Origin: an uncultured Eubacteriales bacterium
GTDB lineage: Bacteria; Bacillota; Clostridia; Oscillospirales; Acutalibacteraceae
Assembly: GCA_900314795.1 (NCBI GenBank)
Contig: OMWP01000036.1
Span: 1-59,044, forward strand
Length of the DNA: 59,044 bases
Reading direction: 5' to 3'
Shown here: piece by piece, positions 9,557 to 42,749 of the stretch
Numbering within the stretch: position 1 is the stretch's first letter
Layout of the letters: every line of letters starts with the position of its first letter
Position numbers and translations under genes: made by a program
The notes under the pieces: generated by a model
The model's input: the letters and a program-made list of their open reading frames with translations, nothing else
Database searches by the model: none
What the model was told of the DNA's origin: nothing

Positions 9557-9562
9557 AAAAAA

Positions 9563-9648
9563 ACAATATAGGGCAAACCCGCTGAAAGGCGGCGACGCAA
9601 AGCTCTGGTGTCTAAATAGTGATTCTATATGACCGACCGGCTGCATAG
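9563..9648 (+). ncRNA. Class I cyclic-di-GMP riboswitch (GEMM-I)
   Basis: The aptamer shows the invariant GEMM-I blocks in order: GGGCAAACC (9571-9579), the GAAA tetraloop in GCTGAAAGGC, GACGCAAAGC (9594-9603), then CTAA (9612-9615) and the closing GACCGACCGGCTGC (9631-9644). GEMM-I RNAs bind c-di-GMP with nanomolar or better affinity and control motility, matrix and surface genes. The 3' half of the aptamer is shared with the terminator stem just downstream, so ligand binding should prevent termination (an ON switch; inference). Confidence 0.92.
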
Positions 9649-36186: not shown

Positions 36187-37295
36187 ATGACAAAACCTTC
36201 GGAGTGGCTCAAAAGTTGGTTTTTTCCAACCACGAGCAAGGAGACAGAAAGTGAGATCGACTCGCTGAATGTCAAGAATATCCACTACGTTTCCCTAGTG
36301 ATCGGGATCGTGCAGACTATCTCACTGGTCGTATTCCTGATCATGAATCACAATAGAATTAATGAAAGCGAAGTTTTATACGCTGTTATCAGAGTCGGCT
36401 TGAGCATCGTGCTGTGCGTGCTGGGCTATTTGATCGCGGGAAGCTTGATGAAAAAACCGGATACTGTCAAACAGCACCCGAGATCCGTCAGACTCTTTAT
36501 CGGTAGTTTTCTTATCCTACTGGTTGTTTGGAGCATGGTTGTATCGGTGTGGAACTACATCAACCATCAACAGCTCCTGACCTTCTACACGGTAGGGCTG
36601 ATCGCGGCATTGTTCGTCAAGCTCCATCCCGTGTTTACAACGACGGTCATCTTCGGTTCCTATATCGTCAATTATCTGATCCTGAATTTCGGCTTTGAGC
36701 GCGGTGTGATCAACCCGTATAACTATATGATGCTCGGGGCGCTGTCGGTGATAGGCGCTATCATGAACTATCGCCTGACCGTGGGCTATATCTCGGAGAA
36801 GAATAAGGCGAATATGCTCAATAACTCTTTAGAGATCATCGCCAACCACGACAGCATCACCCGCTTGCAGAACCGCTATGCGCTGAACCAGCATGTCCCC
36901 GATTTATCGAAAAAGATATCTGCATCGCGATCGGCGATATCAACAGCTTCAAGGCTGTCAACGACACCTACGGTCACCGTGTGGGCGATGATGTGCTCAA
37001 GGGCTTTGCCGATATTCTGGTACAGGTTTTTCCCGCTGAGAGCGTGTTCCGCTTTGGCGGTGATGAATTCCTGGTCATCGAGAAGAACAGTGACCTTGAC
37101 GGCTTAAAGGAAAAGCTCGGGCAGGTCAATGCCATGTTTTCCGCACTGAAAATCTCGGGTATCAACTCACAGTTAGGTTGCAGCTTTGGATGCGTTACGG
37201 CGTGTCCGAAGGATCCTTCGGAGTTCTTTGATTATCTGACACAGGCGGATCAGCTGCTCTATCAGGAAAAGGTACGGGTCAATGCAAACCGTTGA
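36187..37295 (+). pseudogene. Membrane GGDEF diguanylate cyclase, frameshifted
   Basis: About 369 residues if joined. About six membrane helices (32-210) are followed by a GGDEF domain (NHDSITRLQNRYALN, then IAIGDINSFKAVNDTYGH, then RFGGDEFLVIE). The reading frame shifts at an A5 tract at 36910-36914; one extra A would restore VPDLSKKDICIAIGD. The active-site motif GGDEF is intact in the second part. Possible causes are a real mutation, slippage at the A-tract or a sequencing error. It is one of only two proteins here with a canonical GGDEF motif. Confidence 0.82.
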
Positions 37296-37315
37296 TCGAA
37301 AAATTGAATATCACA

Positions 37316-37355
37316 ATGAAAAAATTACATTCGACTGAAAACGCCGAATGTGCTT
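37316..37355 (-). terminator. Terminator of the convergent diguanylate cyclase gene
   Basis: On the minus strand GCACATTCG and CGAATGT pair and are followed by AATTTTTTC. It lies between the two convergent GGDEF genes. Confidence 0.65.
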
Positions 37356-37368
37356 ATGATTTGTTCTG

Positions 37369-38469
37369 TTAATTGGTTGACGGAGCAGGTTCCGATTTCA
37401 GCTGTGAGCAGACGGTGCAGTTCTTTCCCTGATCCTTTGCGAGATACAGGTTGACGTCCGCTTGATGGAGCAGTGCTCTCACATCGGTTGTTCCGCCGTT
37501 TGGCGCGATCACCAGCCCGACGGTCACCGTGGTGTTCAGCCGTTCGCCGTTGAATTCAAACTCCTGTGCACGGATCACGTCGACGATCCTCTTACAGACC
37601 GTTTCCGCATCGATGTCGGTGTGGAACAGGATCAGGAACTCATCGCCGCCCCAGCGGCATAATTCACCGCTGCTGCCGAGCGTATCGAGGATCGCCTGTC
37701 CGAAACCGCGGATCACGATATCGCCGTTGAGATGTCCGAAGTTGTCGTTGATAAACTTGAAGTTGTCAATATCCAGAACAGCAACCGCGGCGGGCTTGAG
37801 CTCTCTCACAGGATCCCCGACGAGTGATTGCAGCCAAAAGCGGTTATAAAGCCCTGTCAGTGCGTCGTGATAGCACAAAAACTCATATTTCAGCCGTGAT
37901 TCCCTGAGCGCGGAGTACGCCATCTCACGCATTTGTTCCAACAACATCGTAACCACAAAGAACGCGAGATACAGCAGCGGGAACCGCGTCATAAACGTGT
38001 TCTCATACGGATACTGTAACAGCCCGCGTCCGAACGGCGTCCAGAAGAAAAAGACAAGTGCCGCAAACATGACCGCCGATAACAGTGAACCGTTGCGCAC
38101 ACCGAACATCAGCAATCCGAACGACGGCAGCATCGCTGTCCAAAGCACGCTGAAGCCGTCGGGGATACCGGACACGATGAAGAAGAGGAAGGTGACCGTT
38201 ATCTATATCGCGAACAGGATGATTGCCACCTTCGCGTATGTTCCCTTTTTCATCAACAGCAGCAAGTCGATCAAGCAGGCAAGCGCAAAGCCCATCGTCA
38301 TCCATGTGAACAATCCTTGCTTCGTAAACAGATTGACAACGGACATGATCAGCGAGATCAATCCGAACAGCACAAAGACGCTGGCGTTCTGAAAGAGCTT
38401 CCATTTCTCCTCGTTTTCAACGAACGCCTTCATTTTTTGACGGTAGAATTCTTTGGACAGGATTTTCAT
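37369..38469 (-). pseudogene. Membrane GGDEF diguanylate cyclase, interrupted by in-frame TAG
   Basis: About 366 codons. The first ~88 residues (MKILSKEFYRQ... with two to three helices) end at a TAG at 38203-38205. The frame then continues unbroken with more helices (GIPDGFSVLWTAMLPSFGLLMFG...) and a GGDEF domain (YHDALTGLYNRFWLQ, VLDIDNFKFINDNFGH, RWGGDEFLILF). A single base change in the TAG would restore the gene. The domain itself looks catalytically complete. GTAGGTGAT precedes the start at 38469. A downstream GTG at 38175 might allow a shortened product. Confidence 0.82.
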
Positions 38470-38714: not shown

Positions 38715-40163
38715 CTATTCACCGTTATATTGCAAGCACAGCATGGTCAGATCATCGAACTGGATCGCGTCGCCGACAAACTGATTGACCGCGTCTTTGA
38801 CGTTAGAGAGGATCGCTTCCGGCGCGCCGTTGGGGTCAATATTCAGCGCCGAGACCATCCTGTCGGTACCGAACTGCTCCTGAGAGATATTGTTTGCCTC
38901 GGGGATACCGTCGGTATAGAGGAAGAGGGCGTCGCCCTTGTTCAACGTGAATGTATAATCCTTGTATCGGACGCCTTCCATACCGCCGACAACAAAGCCG
39001 TGTTTATCCTTGAGCAGCTCAAACTGTCCGCCGCTCTTGCGGATCGCGGGATACTCATGACCCGCGTTGGCGGCGATCACGTTGCCCGTTTCGATATCGA
39101 GGATGCCCAGCCATACGGTGACGAACATCTCCGCCTTGTTATTGCTGCAAATACGGTCGTTCACAAACGCGAGGATCTCGGCGGGCGTGCCGCCCATGAG
39201 CGCTCTGTCATTGATCAGGATCTTTGACGCCATCATGAACAGCGCCGCGGGGACGCCCTTGCCCGAAACGTCCGCCATCACCATGGCGAGGTGCTTTTCG
39301 TCGATCAGAAAAAAGTCGTAGAAGTCGCCGCCGACCTCCTTGGCGGTATACATGCCGGCGTGGATGTCAAATTCCTTTCTTTCCGGAAAGGCAGGGAAGA
39401 TGTTGGGCACCATGCCGTTCTGGATCTGGGTGGCGGTATTCAGCTCCGCCTTGACGTTGGCGGAGGCGCGGGCGATCTCATCCTGTCTGAGTACCATGTC
39501 ATGGCCGTTCTTTGCGATATACACCGCGATGAAGCCGATGATGGTGAACACCAGCAGCCGCGGCAAAAAGCCGTTGACCAGCATGCTGACCACCGCTTTT
39601 GACGGATCGATACCCAACGCCATGATCGCGTCACGCAGTTTCTTTTCGATCACGATGACGGTACCGCTTGCGGGAGAGGGATAGAAGTTCAAATCGATGA
39701 TGCCGAACAGCACGCTCAGGATACTGCCTGCCACCGCGCAAAGCGTCGTCAAAGTCGAGATCATCACGGTAAAGCCCTTGGAAAAATAACGGCTCGACAG
39801 CAGCACGGGCAGGGTCATGATCAGGATGACGTTGTGATTGAGGATACTGAACAGCTGGGTACAGACGAACAACAGGGAGATGACCATCACATATTTGAGC
39901 CAGCGCCGTTGTCCTTTGAACTTGAGATACAGACCGATCGGAACGGCGAATTCGATCAAGCCGGATATTGCGAGGACATTCATCCTGAGTTTCGCGACGG
40001 TGAAGATCCCTGCCATGTTCAACGCCCATGATATGAGCAGGATCACCGCGCAGGAGAGTATGACATAAAAGGACAGGCGGTTTCCGTCATAATCGTTCTG
40101 TTCAAACACATCCTTGGTTTCTTCCGATTCATAGATCTTGAAATAATCTTTGATTTTTCCCAT
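38715..40163 (-). CDS. SpoIIE/RsbU-type PP2C serine phosphatase, membrane-bound
   Basis: 482 residues. About six membrane helices (30-215), a short coiled linker (RQDEIARASANVKAELNTATQIQNGMVPNIFP) and a PP2C-type SpoIIE domain with metal-binding Asp: KEVGGDFYDFF, VMADVSGKGVPAALFMM, GHEYPAI, LFLYTDGIPEA and FDDLTMLCL. Such phosphatases dephosphorylate anti-anti-sigma factors. It is four bases downstream of the RsbW-like kinase, its natural opponent. No STAS-domain substrate or sigma factor is encoded nearby. Confidence 0.87.
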   Translation of the reverse strand: MGKIKDYFKIYESEETKDVFEQNDYDGNRLSFYVILSCAVILLISWALNMAGIFTVAKLRMNVLAISGLIEFAVPIGLYLKFKGQRRWLKYVMVISLLFVCTQLFSILNHNVILIMTLPVLLSSRYFSKGFTVMISTLTTLCAVAGSILSVLFGIIDLNFYPSPASGTVIVIEKKLRDAIMALGIDPSKAVVSMLVNGFLPRLLVFTIIGFIAVYIAKNGHDMVLRQDEIARASANVKAELNTATQIQNGMVPNIFPAFPERKEFDIHAGMYTAKEVGGDFYDFFLIDEKHLAMVMADVSGKGVPAALFMMASKILINDRALMGGTPAEILAFVNDRICSNNKAEMFVTVWLGILDIETGNVIAANAGHEYPAIRKSGGQFELLKDKHGFVVGGMEGVRYKDYTFTLNKGDALFLYTDGIPEANNISQEQFGTDRMVSALNIDPNGAPEAILSNVKDAVNQFVGDAIQFDDLTMLCLQYNGE

Positions 40164-40167
40164 TTTA

Positions 40168-40578
40168 TCACCTCAGTTTTTTCATGATCGAGAGTATATT
40201 GTGACCGTCCTCGTAGCGGTATTCCATATGATCCATCGTCTTTTTGACGAGGAAGATGCCCAGTCCGCCGATGCTGCGCTCCTTTGCCGAGAGCGTGGTG
40301 TCGGGATCCGCCTTTTGGAGCGGATCAAAGGGCGTTCCGCTGTCAATGAAGGTCAGCGTCACGGTGTGCGAATCCTCGTCAAAAGCGATCCGTACCGTCG
40401 CTGTGCCCCGATCATGCCCATAGGCATAGTGCGCGATATTGCCGAACAGTTCATCGATCGCGACGTCGATCTGGATCTGTATTTTCATCGGACAGCCTAT
40501 GGCTTCCAGCTCCGCGTTGACGAACGCGGTGACAGTTTCGATGTTCTCTATTACAGCGTCGACGGTCAGTTCTTTCAT
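40168..40578 (-). CDS. RsbW-like anti-sigma factor serine kinase
   Basis: 136 residues of the GHKL ATPase fold: IDVAIDELFGNIAHYAYGHD is the N-box, FIDSGTPFDP the G1 box, and IGGLGIFLVKKTMDHMEYRYEDGHNIL the G2 region. RsbW-type proteins bind a sigma factor or phosphorylate an anti-anti-sigma. The ATG at 40578 follows AAAGGAG; an ATG 24 bases upstream lacks one. The leader (40579-40802) is long and structured. Confidence 0.87.
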   Translation of the reverse strand: MKELTVDAVIENIETVTAFVNAELEAIGCPMKIQIQIDVAIDELFGNIAHYAYGHDRGTATVRIAFDEDSHTVTLTFIDSGTPFDPLQKADPDTTLSAKERSIGGLGIFLVKKTMDHMEYRYEDGHNILSIMKKLR

Positions 40579-40802
40579 CCCGATCACTCCTTTTCCGATC
40601 ATAGGATGAAGAGAGTTGAACTCAATTGCCGATAATGAGTCATTTTCAGTCTTTATCGGCTTATCGTCGATCGCAACCCGTCAAGGGTTACTCCTCCTCT
40701 AAACCGGAGTGAATACTGTCGTATTCACGAGGATTTTGCCGAAGAGCAGGCGGAAATATACCGCTATAAACCAATTGGGGTTCAACTCCCTTCATCCTAT
40801 GA
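40579..40802 (-). ncRNA. Candidate structured leader RNA, copy 2
   Basis: Reading minus from about 40802: AGGATGAAG, CCAATTGG (40771-40778), a GCGG/CCGC hairpin (40750-40764), CTTC and CAAAATCCTCGT, the same order as copy 1, with AGGAT closing on ATCCT (40730-40734). Next come a perfect 8-bp hairpin, GTGAATAC/GTATTCAC (40709-40728), and near the ribosome site a 28-base segment (40601-40628) complementary to the leader's own 5' end (40772-40800). The two pairings exclude each other, the usual layout of a switch. Confidence 0.55.
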
Positions 40803-40806
40803 TATG

Positions 40807-40835
40807 AGTATAGCATATGTTGATTTTAATGACAA
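40807..40835 (-). promoter_or_regulatory. Promoter of rsbW/spoIIE operon
   Basis: Minus strand: TTGTCA (40830-40835), 17 bases, TATACT (40807-40812). The expected start falls at the first bases of the structured leader. Confidence 0.7.
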
Positions 40836-40879
40836 GTATTTCCCTCTGCCTTTCACGGATCAAAGGATAAAAACATGAT

Positions 40880-41303
40880 GTTGCAGGTGTTGCAGCAAAA
40901 AAAGTCGTTTTCAGATTTTCTCTTTTTTAAGGAACTTTACTTTTTACCTGCAACATCTGCAACAAGCTATCGTGTAGGTCAAAAAACACACTTGTCGCAG
41001 GTGTCGCAGCAAAATAAGTCGTTTTCAGATTTCCTCTTTTTTAAGAGAGTTTAGTTTTTACCTGCGACATCTGCGACATTGTGCGGATCAGAGAAACCCT
41101 TGGAGCAGGTGGAGCAGCAAGAAACGGTTATTTTCAGAAAAGCCTCTTTTTAAGAGAGTACTGTTTTTACCTGCTCCGGCTGCTCCACCAAAAGGAAGGC
41201 ACCAAAAAACACCCTTGGGGCAGATGTGGCAGCAAAAATTGGTTGTTTTTAGAAAAGCTCTTTTTTTAGAGAGTTTAGTTTTTATCTGCCACACCTGCCC
41301 CAA
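40880..41303. repeat. Tandem array of four hairpin units with unit-specific arm words
   Basis: Units at 40880-40963, 40993-41078, 41101-41187 and 41215-41303 (period 108-114). Each has a left arm with two 7-base words, an AT-rich core (GTTTTCAGA, CTCTTTTTTAAGAGAGTTTA), and a right arm with the two words inverted. Words: GTTGCAG, GTCGCAG, GGAGCAG, and in unit 4 GGGGCAG outer plus GTGGCAG inner. All four occurrences within a unit agree, or in unit 4 pair outer with outer and inner with inner. There are no convincing genes in it. Confidence 0.9.
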
Positions 41304-41372: not shown

Positions 41373-41401
41373 TTTTCAAGCCGCTGTTTTTATGCTATAA
41401 T
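41373..41401 (+). promoter_or_regulatory. Promoter of cation:proton antiporter gene
   Basis: TTTTCA (41373-41378), 17 bases, perfect TATAAT (41396-41401). Confidence 0.6.
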
Positions 41402-41480: not shown

Positions 41481-42749
41481 ATGGAAACTATGTATATTTT
41501 TGTCGCGATCATCGCCCTGGTCTGTCTGCTTGGGTTCTTTAACGAAAAGGTCACCAAGATGACCTATGAGATCGGACTCATGCTGTACTCGACCATCCTC
41601 GGTATCGTTCTGCTGATCGGCATCGCCATCTTCAACGATACCAGCGTCGGAGAGGTACTCAAACAAATACAGGGCTTCGATATCCACGACTTTTTGATGC
41701 ACGGCGTGCTGTGCTTCATGCTGTTCGCCGGCTCCTGCCATATGAAGCTATCCGACTTCAAACGTATGGCACGACAGATCACCGTGCTCTCGCTGGTATG
41801 CACCTTGCTCGGCGCGATCTTCTACGCACTGCTCATCTACGGCGCAAGCCTCGCCTTCGGGCTGAATCTCTCGCTGCCCGTATGCCTGATGTTCGGCAGT
41901 ATCATCGCCCCCACCGATCCGATCGCCGCGACCGGTATTCTCAGCAAGTTCGGTCTGCCGAAGGACACCTCCTTCCTGATCCAGGGTGAATCCCTGTTCA
42001 ACGACGGTATCGGCGTAGCGCTGTTCGTCTGCTTCTCCGGCATGGTAAAGGCAAGCGGCGGTTCTTCCGATCAGGGCTTCCTGTCCGTCATGCTCCGTGA
42101 GGTACTCGGCGCAGTTGCTATCGGCATCATCGTTACGCTGGTATGCTTCCTGATGTACCGCTTCTCCAAGCATCCGCAGCTCAAGATCTTCATCAGCCTG
42201 CTGACCGTATCTCTGGCGTATTCGCTGTGCGAGGTATTCCACTGCTCCGGCGCGATCGCATCCGTTATCTGCGGTATCCTGTTCTCTCACCTGCGCTCCA
42301 AGTATGCAGAGTCCGAGAAAAAGGAACACGCGGAGCTGTTCGACTCCTTCTGGGAGACGCTCGATGTTTTCTTCAACTCGCTGTTGTATGTCCTCTTAGG
42401 TCTGTCGTTCGTCAGCGTTCTCAAGATGGAGAGCGTCCTGCTGCTCTCGCTCACCGCGATCGCCGCAAACCTGATCGCGCGCGTCGGCAGTCTGTCGATC
42501 TCTTCACTGTTCATGGGTGAGATCCCCGACGGTTTCTCCAAATCGGGCTTTGTTACCCTGTTCACATGGGGCGGACTGCGAGGCGGCTTATCCGTTGCCC
42601 TTGCGATGAGCACCAAGGATATGGTGCCTGAAAAGGTCTACTACATCATCCTCGGCTGTACCTACGCCGTCGTATTCTTCACCACGGTCATCCAAGGTCT
42701 GACGATGAAGCCTGTTTACAAGGCGATCACCAAAAAGAAACCGGCATGA
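41481..42749 (+). CDS. CPA1-type cation:proton antiporter (NhaP/NhaK-like)
   Basis: 422 residues, about 12-13 helices. Family signatures: IIAPTDPIAATGIL (the DP transport motif), QGESLFNDGIGVALF (ESLFND), and TWGGLRGGLSVALA near the C-terminus. It exchanges Na+ or K+ for protons across the membrane. The ATG at 41481 has AAAGGAGGA upstream; the 81-base upstream extension of the frame is not supported. Monocistronic, with promoter and terminator. Confidence 0.9.
   Translation: METMYIFVAIIALVCLLGFFNEKVTKMTYEIGLMLYSTILGIVLLIGIAIFNDTSVGEVLKQIQGFDIHDFLMHGVLCFMLFAGSCHMKLSDFKRMARQITVLSLVCTLLGAIFYALLIYGASLAFGLNLSLPVCLMFGSIIAPTDPIAATGILSKFGLPKDTSFLIQGESLFNDGIGVALFVCFSGMVKASGGSSDQGFLSVMLREVLGAVAIGIIVTLVCFLMYRFSKHPQLKIFISLLTVSLAYSLCEVFHCSGAIASVICGILFSHLRSKYAESEKKEHAELFDSFWETLDVFFNSLLYVLLGLSFVSVLKMESVLLLSLTAIAANLIARVGSLSISSLFMGEIPDGFSKSGFVTLFTWGGLRGGLSVALAMSTKDMVPEKVYYIILGCTYAVVFFTTVIQGLTMKPVYKAITKKKPA

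Follow-up and report, generated by a model that had tools for sequence, protein, structure and literature searches.

The replication origins of SaPIs and other PICIs consist of two iteron sets that flank an AT-rich region and lie immediately 3′ of pri-rep (PMC6092414). The C-terminal domain of the SaPI Rep protein is reported to recognise these downstream iterons, and Cch2, the D5_N-type initiator helicase of SCCmec, binds direct repeats that follow its operon (PMC7581432). A phage origin present on its own can also block replication of the cognate phage: an ectopic λ ori arrests λ (PMC4488673) and cloned phage origins give a phage-encoded resistance (PER) phenotype (PMC8965321).

The 59,044-nt stretch analysed here (the window) contains four tandem units with the layout of a SaPI/PICI origin. 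Each unit is 86–87 bp long and carries a 9-nt-phased word twice in its left arm and twice inverted in its right arm, around an AT-rich core; the array spans 40879–41302 with a spacing of 108–115. The left arm follows the pattern TGNNGCAGR (TGNNGCAG) and the right arm is its inverse, with NN being TT, TC and GA in units 1–3 and GG (outer) plus TG (inner) in unit 4. Direct reading and a repeat search confirmed the four tandem units of the earlier note and their arm words, namely GTTGCAG, GTCGCAG and GGAGCAG four times each and, in unit 4, outer GGGGCAG and inner GTGGCAG; its outer coordinates agree with ours within 1 bp. The note knew of no named element with such a design, but SaPI/PICI-type origins have it (PMC6092414). 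The features of the locus are as follows.

40168..40602, minus strand: flanking gene HATPase_c_2 (PF13581), from a domain match
40807..40835, minus strand: promoter-like site pointing off the array to the HATPase (anti-sigma-like) gene, a consensus match only
40879..40964, plus strand: putative orphan origin unit 1, iterons TGTTGCAGG TGTTGCAG / core / CTGCAACAT CTGCAACA, word TT
40896..40947, no strand assigned: AT-rich core of unit 1, putative melting region from sequence and alignment, with homologous cores in units 2–4
40993..41078, plus strand: putative orphan origin unit 2, word TC (TGTCGCA ×4), core end AGAGAGTTTAGTTTTTACCTGC
41101..41187, plus strand: putative orphan origin unit 3, word GA (TGGAGCA ×4)
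41216..41302, plus strand: putative orphan origin unit 4, outer word GG and inner word TG, a combination seen again in primase-linked units
41373..41401, plus strand: promoter-like site pointing off the array to the Na+/H+ exchanger gene, a consensus match only
41481..42746, plus strand: flanking gene Na_H_Exchanger (PF00999), with units upstream of the exchanger in seven species

Compared with SaPI/PICI origins, the array shares the layout, and homologous units elsewhere lie just 3′ of D5-type primase-helicase genes; it differs in that no initiator was found next to it or anywhere in the genome, and in that it comprises four tandem units with a different word each. The Cch2 origin resembles it in its D5_N-type initiator and downstream repeats but has 5-nt iterons and a linked initiator. 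PER and ectopic λ experiments used cloned origins, one kind at a time, whereas the array is natural, chromosomal and multi-word. The origin layout is already known, but chromosomal tandem arrays of origins that lack an initiator and have diversified iterons are apparently new: we know of no report, and titles and abstract openings in the open literature mention none.

An unbiased detector, which scores a 9-nt period within arms together with inversion between arms, found all four units in the 59 kb, with one weak match (score 14) elsewhere and a mean of 0.0 matches in 20 whole-window mononucleotide shuffles. Folded as single-stranded DNA, each unit was more stable than its shuffles (z −5.7 to −7.2; 0/200 shuffles each). 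In an alignment of 16 units, four of them from the window, pairing holds for 92.3% of arm cells, and covariation scores 0.235, compared with 0.098 when shuffled and at most 0.079 when slid. A fifth unit, with the word TGTAGCA (NN = TA), was found on a different contig of this genome, which therefore holds five units, each with its own word (TT, TC, GA, GG/TG and TA); five orphan units drawn at random would all differ with a probability of 0.14, so this genome alone proves little about diversity. Around the array, an insertion of about 200 bp at 40601–40800, with terminal inverted repeats ATAGGATGAAG...CTTCATCCTAT, separates the HATPase gene from the units; it is missing from the corresponding site in G012 and, read by eye, looks MITE-like. 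A gene for a SpoIIE-type phosphatase (38715–40163) adjoins the HATPase_c_2 gene, a possible partner-switching pair. Elsewhere in the window, a c-di-GMP-I riboswitch aptamer scores above its gathering score at 9562–9648, and ORFs at 36187–38175 look GGDEF-like by eye.

With BLAST, four of 59 related genomes (G012, G014, G017 and G023) showed strong matches (E < 1e-4). A pattern search of 394 genomes of the order gave matches in five; of the four outside the window genome (G000), L043 and L044 look like chance matches in coding sequence. A right-arm pattern matched ten viral stretches, in four of which the unit was visible on reading (L049, L051, L052 and L053), and broader patterns yielded further viral unit matches. 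The element is recurrent and non-random and is found in other genomes. The earlier note had proposed a search for a dedicated binding protein near other copies, and a D5 primase-helicase does adjoin homologous units in other genomes. A protein of 760–834 aa lies beside the unit at five of the 16 viral unit loci inspected (L049, L051, L053, L057 and L120); four of these proteins are D5_N + Pox_D5 primase-helicases and one has PriCT_2 + DUF5906. In G017, the unit begins 7 bp past the stop codon of a D5 primase.

For a census from the protein side, 160 D5-type primase loci were gathered (80 viral contigs, L053 included, and 80 genome contigs), and 132 were kept after dropping those with no ORF bearing the NGK motif, with less than 150 nt after the stop, or with a duplicate around the stop. 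At a score of at least 26 (maximum 28), an inverted two-iteron unit was present 3′ of the primase in 71 of these 132 distinct regions, compared with 0/132 shuffles and 4/2857 windows elsewhere in these loci; L053, L260, L269 and L283, which are among the 71, were known beforehand, their contigs having first been found by their unit. Lowering the score to at least 24 gave 94/132 primase 3′ regions and 13/2857 other windows. No unit appeared in 21 of the 132 even at a score of at least 22, where the background amounts to 92/2857 windows, and the distant D5 relatives L289–L301 mostly scored 22–24 or had none. These counts come from a flexible detector; a strict 9-nt detector, positive at only seven primase loci because many linked origins use 10-nt phasing, was replaced by it. 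The linked unit often starts 4–10 bp after the primase stop, and elsewhere up to about 200 bp after it. Words differ between primase-linked loci, the outer-GG/inner-TG mix of unit 4 recurs among them (L234, L335 and others), and the linked unit of L226 has the 22-nt core end AGAGAGTTTAGTTTTTACCTGC in common with unit 2. Judged from this sequence record, the units of the array are very probably orphan D5-type origins.

The word of a linked unit tracks its initiator. We analysed 72 loci with a score of at least 24 and at least three readable TGNNGCA words, 52 after removal of near-copies, and aligned the last 330 residues of the initiators where they were long enough. Two adjacent columns near the C-terminus, the XX of RKRPxxGG-XX-TTxxxGY, stood far above the others in information on the inner-right word. 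They were the top two of 321 columns at redundancy cuts of 95, 80 and 70% (29 sequences at 80%, 19 at 70%); in a pairwise control at 60–90% identity, one ranked first and the other sixth. Among 61 initiators with a readable motif and word, near-copies kept in, EK goes with TG or GG in 22/22, SE with TC in 9/9, and GM, GA, GL, AL, SA, SP, NP, NM or NE with TA in 25/26, the single cases being AP with GA, EQ with TG, HK with TG and GE with TC. The second residue shows a trend, K occurring with G, E mostly with C, and small or hydrophobic residues with A; NE occurs with TA, so the code involves more than the second residue. A 125-residue C-terminus modelled with AlphaFold2 (mean pLDDT 82.6, pTM 0.63) ends in two helices, a strand, a wing loop and a final strand, and XX (107–108) lies where the wing joins that strand; the initiator C-terminal domain thus models as a winged helix with XX at the wing. 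Its best PDB match, and the only one with a Foldseek E below 0.001, is the RFX DNA-binding domain on X-box DNA (1dp7; E 3.7e-4). RFX is a eukaryotic transcription factor, and the likeness concerns the fold and possibly the binding mode only. RFX recognises DNA through its wing, and its target is an inverted repeat resembling GTTGCY. On statistical support, two wing residues may predict the iteron word of an initiator. Such a wing code would make the origin specificity of these D5-type initiators readable from sequence, whatever the decoy status of the array discussed below, and would allow a direct test of the origins open to a given phage or satellite. All inner-left words begin with T or G, both in 53/53 orphan units and in 83/83 readable linked units, linked units without four NNGC words being left out of this comparison. 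The TT word of unit 1 is the inner-left word in 0/83 readable linked units; one linked unit (L351) has TT as its inner-right word.

In the window genome, which is 99.75% complete, neither the full D5 initiator nor D5_N nor Pox_D5 had a match, and a profile of the initiator C-terminus had none at E ≤ 1, in a search run without its own positive control. Near the array, no initiator was found and, among PICI/SaPI island features, no pri-rep; the two flanking genes are HATPase_c_2 and Na_H_Exchanger. With no initiator adjoining or detected, the units are termed orphan origins and not a working replicon. Across the genus, a covariance model built mostly from orphan units, applied with strict Infernal filters that may miss weak copies, detected units in 31/161 genomes. 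Most of these units had no initiator alongside and recurred at shared intergenic sites. We examined 48 genus regions with up to 3 kb on each side: a primase ORF is present in three (L428, L455 and L458), and no primase ORF (E ≤ 1e-3) was found in the flanks of 45, several of which are cut by contig ends. Four readable words could be assigned in 53 orphan units from 39 loci and 27 genomes, a set that omits unparsed units (L420, L436, L455 and L457) and chance hits. Of 300 genomes drawn from the family, six have units (G000, G032, G595, G700, G740 and G374). Outside the genus, G595 and G700 have a unit beside a primase ORF, G740 has one unit beside a primase and one pair without, and the two matches in G374 are weak, one of them lying about 600 bp from a primase ORF that looks interrupted and the other having none in the 1.5-kb flanks examined. 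Orphan units were hence seen mainly, not only, in the genus of the window genome.

Units lie upstream of the Na+/H+ exchanger gene in seven species: four in G000, three in G012, two in G535, one each in G461, G491 and G493, and a single damaged one in G432. None was found in the 281 nt upstream of the exchanger in G435 or the 558 nt in G531. At this locus, words and copy number change between close species. Cores group by host lineage and not by word. G017 has seven orphans and a linked origin that share a core, at 80–96% identity in all listed comparisons, which cover every pair but L413–L458, under the words GG, TG, TT, GA and TA; its linked-unit core is 80–94% identical to the six orphan cores, of seven, that this listing covers. 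Likewise, the four units of G514 have different words and a core shared at 75–91%. For the window units, the best linked core is only 72–76% identical. Within arrays, 23 of the 24 pairs of units have different words (shuffle mean 18.7, P 0.023), a diversity that is only modestly significant and in which the orthologous arrays of G000 and G012 are not independent. Conservation against flanks was compared for several pairs. The units of G515 and G020, at an intergenic site between an oxidoreductase (glutamate synthase-like) gene and a CTP synthase gene, differ at 1/87 positions, whereas their 100-bp flanks have 21 and 15 mismatches along with 6 gap columns. Among five other pairs, the unit is more conserved than its flanks in L416/L418 and in L423/L424, both copies of which belong to a single genome; L420/L436 and L439/L450 differ too little for a verdict, and L418/L429 show the opposite, with 13 core mismatches against 8 in the flanks. 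Between G000 and G012, units 3 and 4 changed at 0/68 arm positions, 5/106 core positions plus a gap and 0/50 spacer positions, counts that are uninformative on arm versus core conservation. Nine flanking proteins from five orphan loci were scanned: seven belong to ordinary cellular families and two have no Pfam match, and no common cargo or phage-type domain was found among them.

We lean, on balance, towards reading the array as four orphan origins of SaPI/PICI layout that act as multi-specificity decoys trapping incoming initiators. In a functional replicon, the initiator encoded just upstream would bind the iterons through the wing of its C-terminal winged helix and melt the AT-rich core. 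On entry of a phage or satellite whose initiator matches, the units in the chromosome would bind that initiator, which would be titrated or would start abortive initiation at the wrong place, reducing replication of the invader; several words per array would cover several initiator specificities. We infer initiator binding, titration and host benefit from the origin layout in working elements together with the ectopic λ and PER precedents, and by this analogy a decoy function of the array itself is conceivable, a little short of an even case. More tentatively still, the genus may keep natural, diversifying arrays of false origins as a protein-free, DNA-only defence that covers the main circulating D5-type phage and satellite specificities, each word being predictable from two wing residues. 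If the units are decoys, such a defence, made of DNA alone, is invisible to standard searches for defence genes. In favour of selection we count the word diversity of arrays, the lineage-grouped cores, the T/G-first words and the unit in G515/G020 that is more conserved than its flanks. Several observations count against decoys. Orphan units and D5_N genes do not exclude each other (27/161 and 22/161 genomes, overlap 3, odds ratio 0.76, p = 1), and G017 holds a linked GG/TG origin together with orphans bearing the same words. The covariance model behind the census was built largely on orphan units, and several regions stop at contig edges. The inner-left TT word is absent from the 83 readable linked units, units decay or are absent (damaged in G432, none in the examined stretches of G435 and G531), and the L418/L429 core is more divergent than its flanks. 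Single chromosomal copies may also be too few to titrate an initiator, the λ experiment having used a multicopy plasmid.

The earlier note had read the units as an RNA or single-stranded DNA hairpin, REP/MITE-like or a small RNA, kept for base pairing. Strong folding and arm covariation speak for it, and arms do tend to change together. Base pairing as the conserved feature is nevertheless unsupported: of the 53 readable orphan units in the genus, 50 have matching inner words and 42 matching outer words, while direct repeats are equal on the left in 42 and on the right in 45, and all four words are equal in 37. Direct repeats thus match about as often as the paired words that the note had taken for conserved nested pairing, and a hairpin would not need them, whereas iterons do. 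Transitional units with only some words changed persist (TA,TA/TC,TC and TT,GA/GA,GA), and their arms do not covary, the finding that the note itself had named as contradicting it. The array is flanked by two outward-pointing promoter-like sites (three such consensus matches in the array kilobase, 1.6 expected), so nothing suggests its transcription, and it probably lies outside both neighbouring transcripts. A search of Rfam 15 found no family at gathering threshold on the array, the best match reaching 34.8 bits against 150 for MIR8670. The word also correlates with residues of a predicted DNA-binding wing, which would place it in double-stranded DNA; taken together, the evidence points to initiator-binding iterons and not a pairing code. 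We dropped hairpin RNA as the main reading on the missing Rfam fit, the outward promoter-like sites and the direct-repeat conservation, and regard any hairpin kept for pairing as very improbable. Integron attC sites and REP/RAYT elements were set aside because the units vary in the arm word instead of the loop, and on account of their link to primases. In the flanks of detected units, no shared target duplication of a MITE was seen by eye, and G435 and G531 give no clean empty site for such a comparison. The same promoter-like sites, at a recurrent locus, would suit operators that derive from phage origins, now regulate the two neighbouring genes and answer to a putative host regulator sharing the winged-helix specificity. 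The genome search for the C-terminal domain, run without its own positive control, found no such protein at E ≤ 1, other orphan loci flank unrelated genes, and at one and the same locus close species differ in words and copy number; we therefore hold operators scarcely probable at all.

The main and serious rival to decoys, which we judge rather unlikely, is that the units are neutral relics of decayed phages or satellites, tandemly duplicated, whose words are homogenised without selection by template switching between arms and slippage of the 9-nt repeats. Template switching at quasi-palindromes is a known process. Decayed and missing copies, intermediate units with only some words changed, the absence of exclusion between orphan units and D5 genes, and one orthologous pair more divergent in its core than in its flanks all fit such an origin. 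It sits less well with the 45/48 regions, several cut by contig ends, whose flanks have no primase ORF (E ≤ 1e-3), with inner-left words that stay within the T/G-first set of functional origins (53/53), with one unit far better conserved than its flanks, and with units upstream of the same gene in seven species. Alternatively, incoming initiators might fire the chromosomal units in trans, amplifying or mobilising nearby host DNA to the gain of phage, satellite or host. The units keep the full origin layout and core, and PICIs use such origins (PMC6092414), but the nine scanned flanking proteins of five loci have no common cargo or phage-type domain, and we consider trans-activation improbable. 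Decoys remain the reading towards which we lean.

Variants of the design occur beyond the units described above. In the viral contigs L061, L062 and L071, units have three right-hand iterons and spans of up to 118 nt. Inverted 9-nt iteron units with longer cores and TGTTGCA or TGTAACA words are present in viral L058 (4582–4703), L077 (882–1013), L082 (7231–7362), L124 (3998–4200) and L156 (2384–2491); none of these lies beside a recognised primase, and several neighbouring ORFs are terminase-like by eye. D5 initiators of another subfamily, with the C-terminus RSGGNTYY (L220/L517 in G015 and L519 in G502), have TGTAGCAG-type iterons after them in both orientations, so two initiator lineages may share one word family. 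A second orphan type, whose iterons are GCGTGTC and whose examined surroundings contain no primase ORF, is present at L457 (3003–3102; G498:C76), and the same genome has a D5 initiator of another subfamily (L504) with GCGTGTC iterons at its 3′ end.
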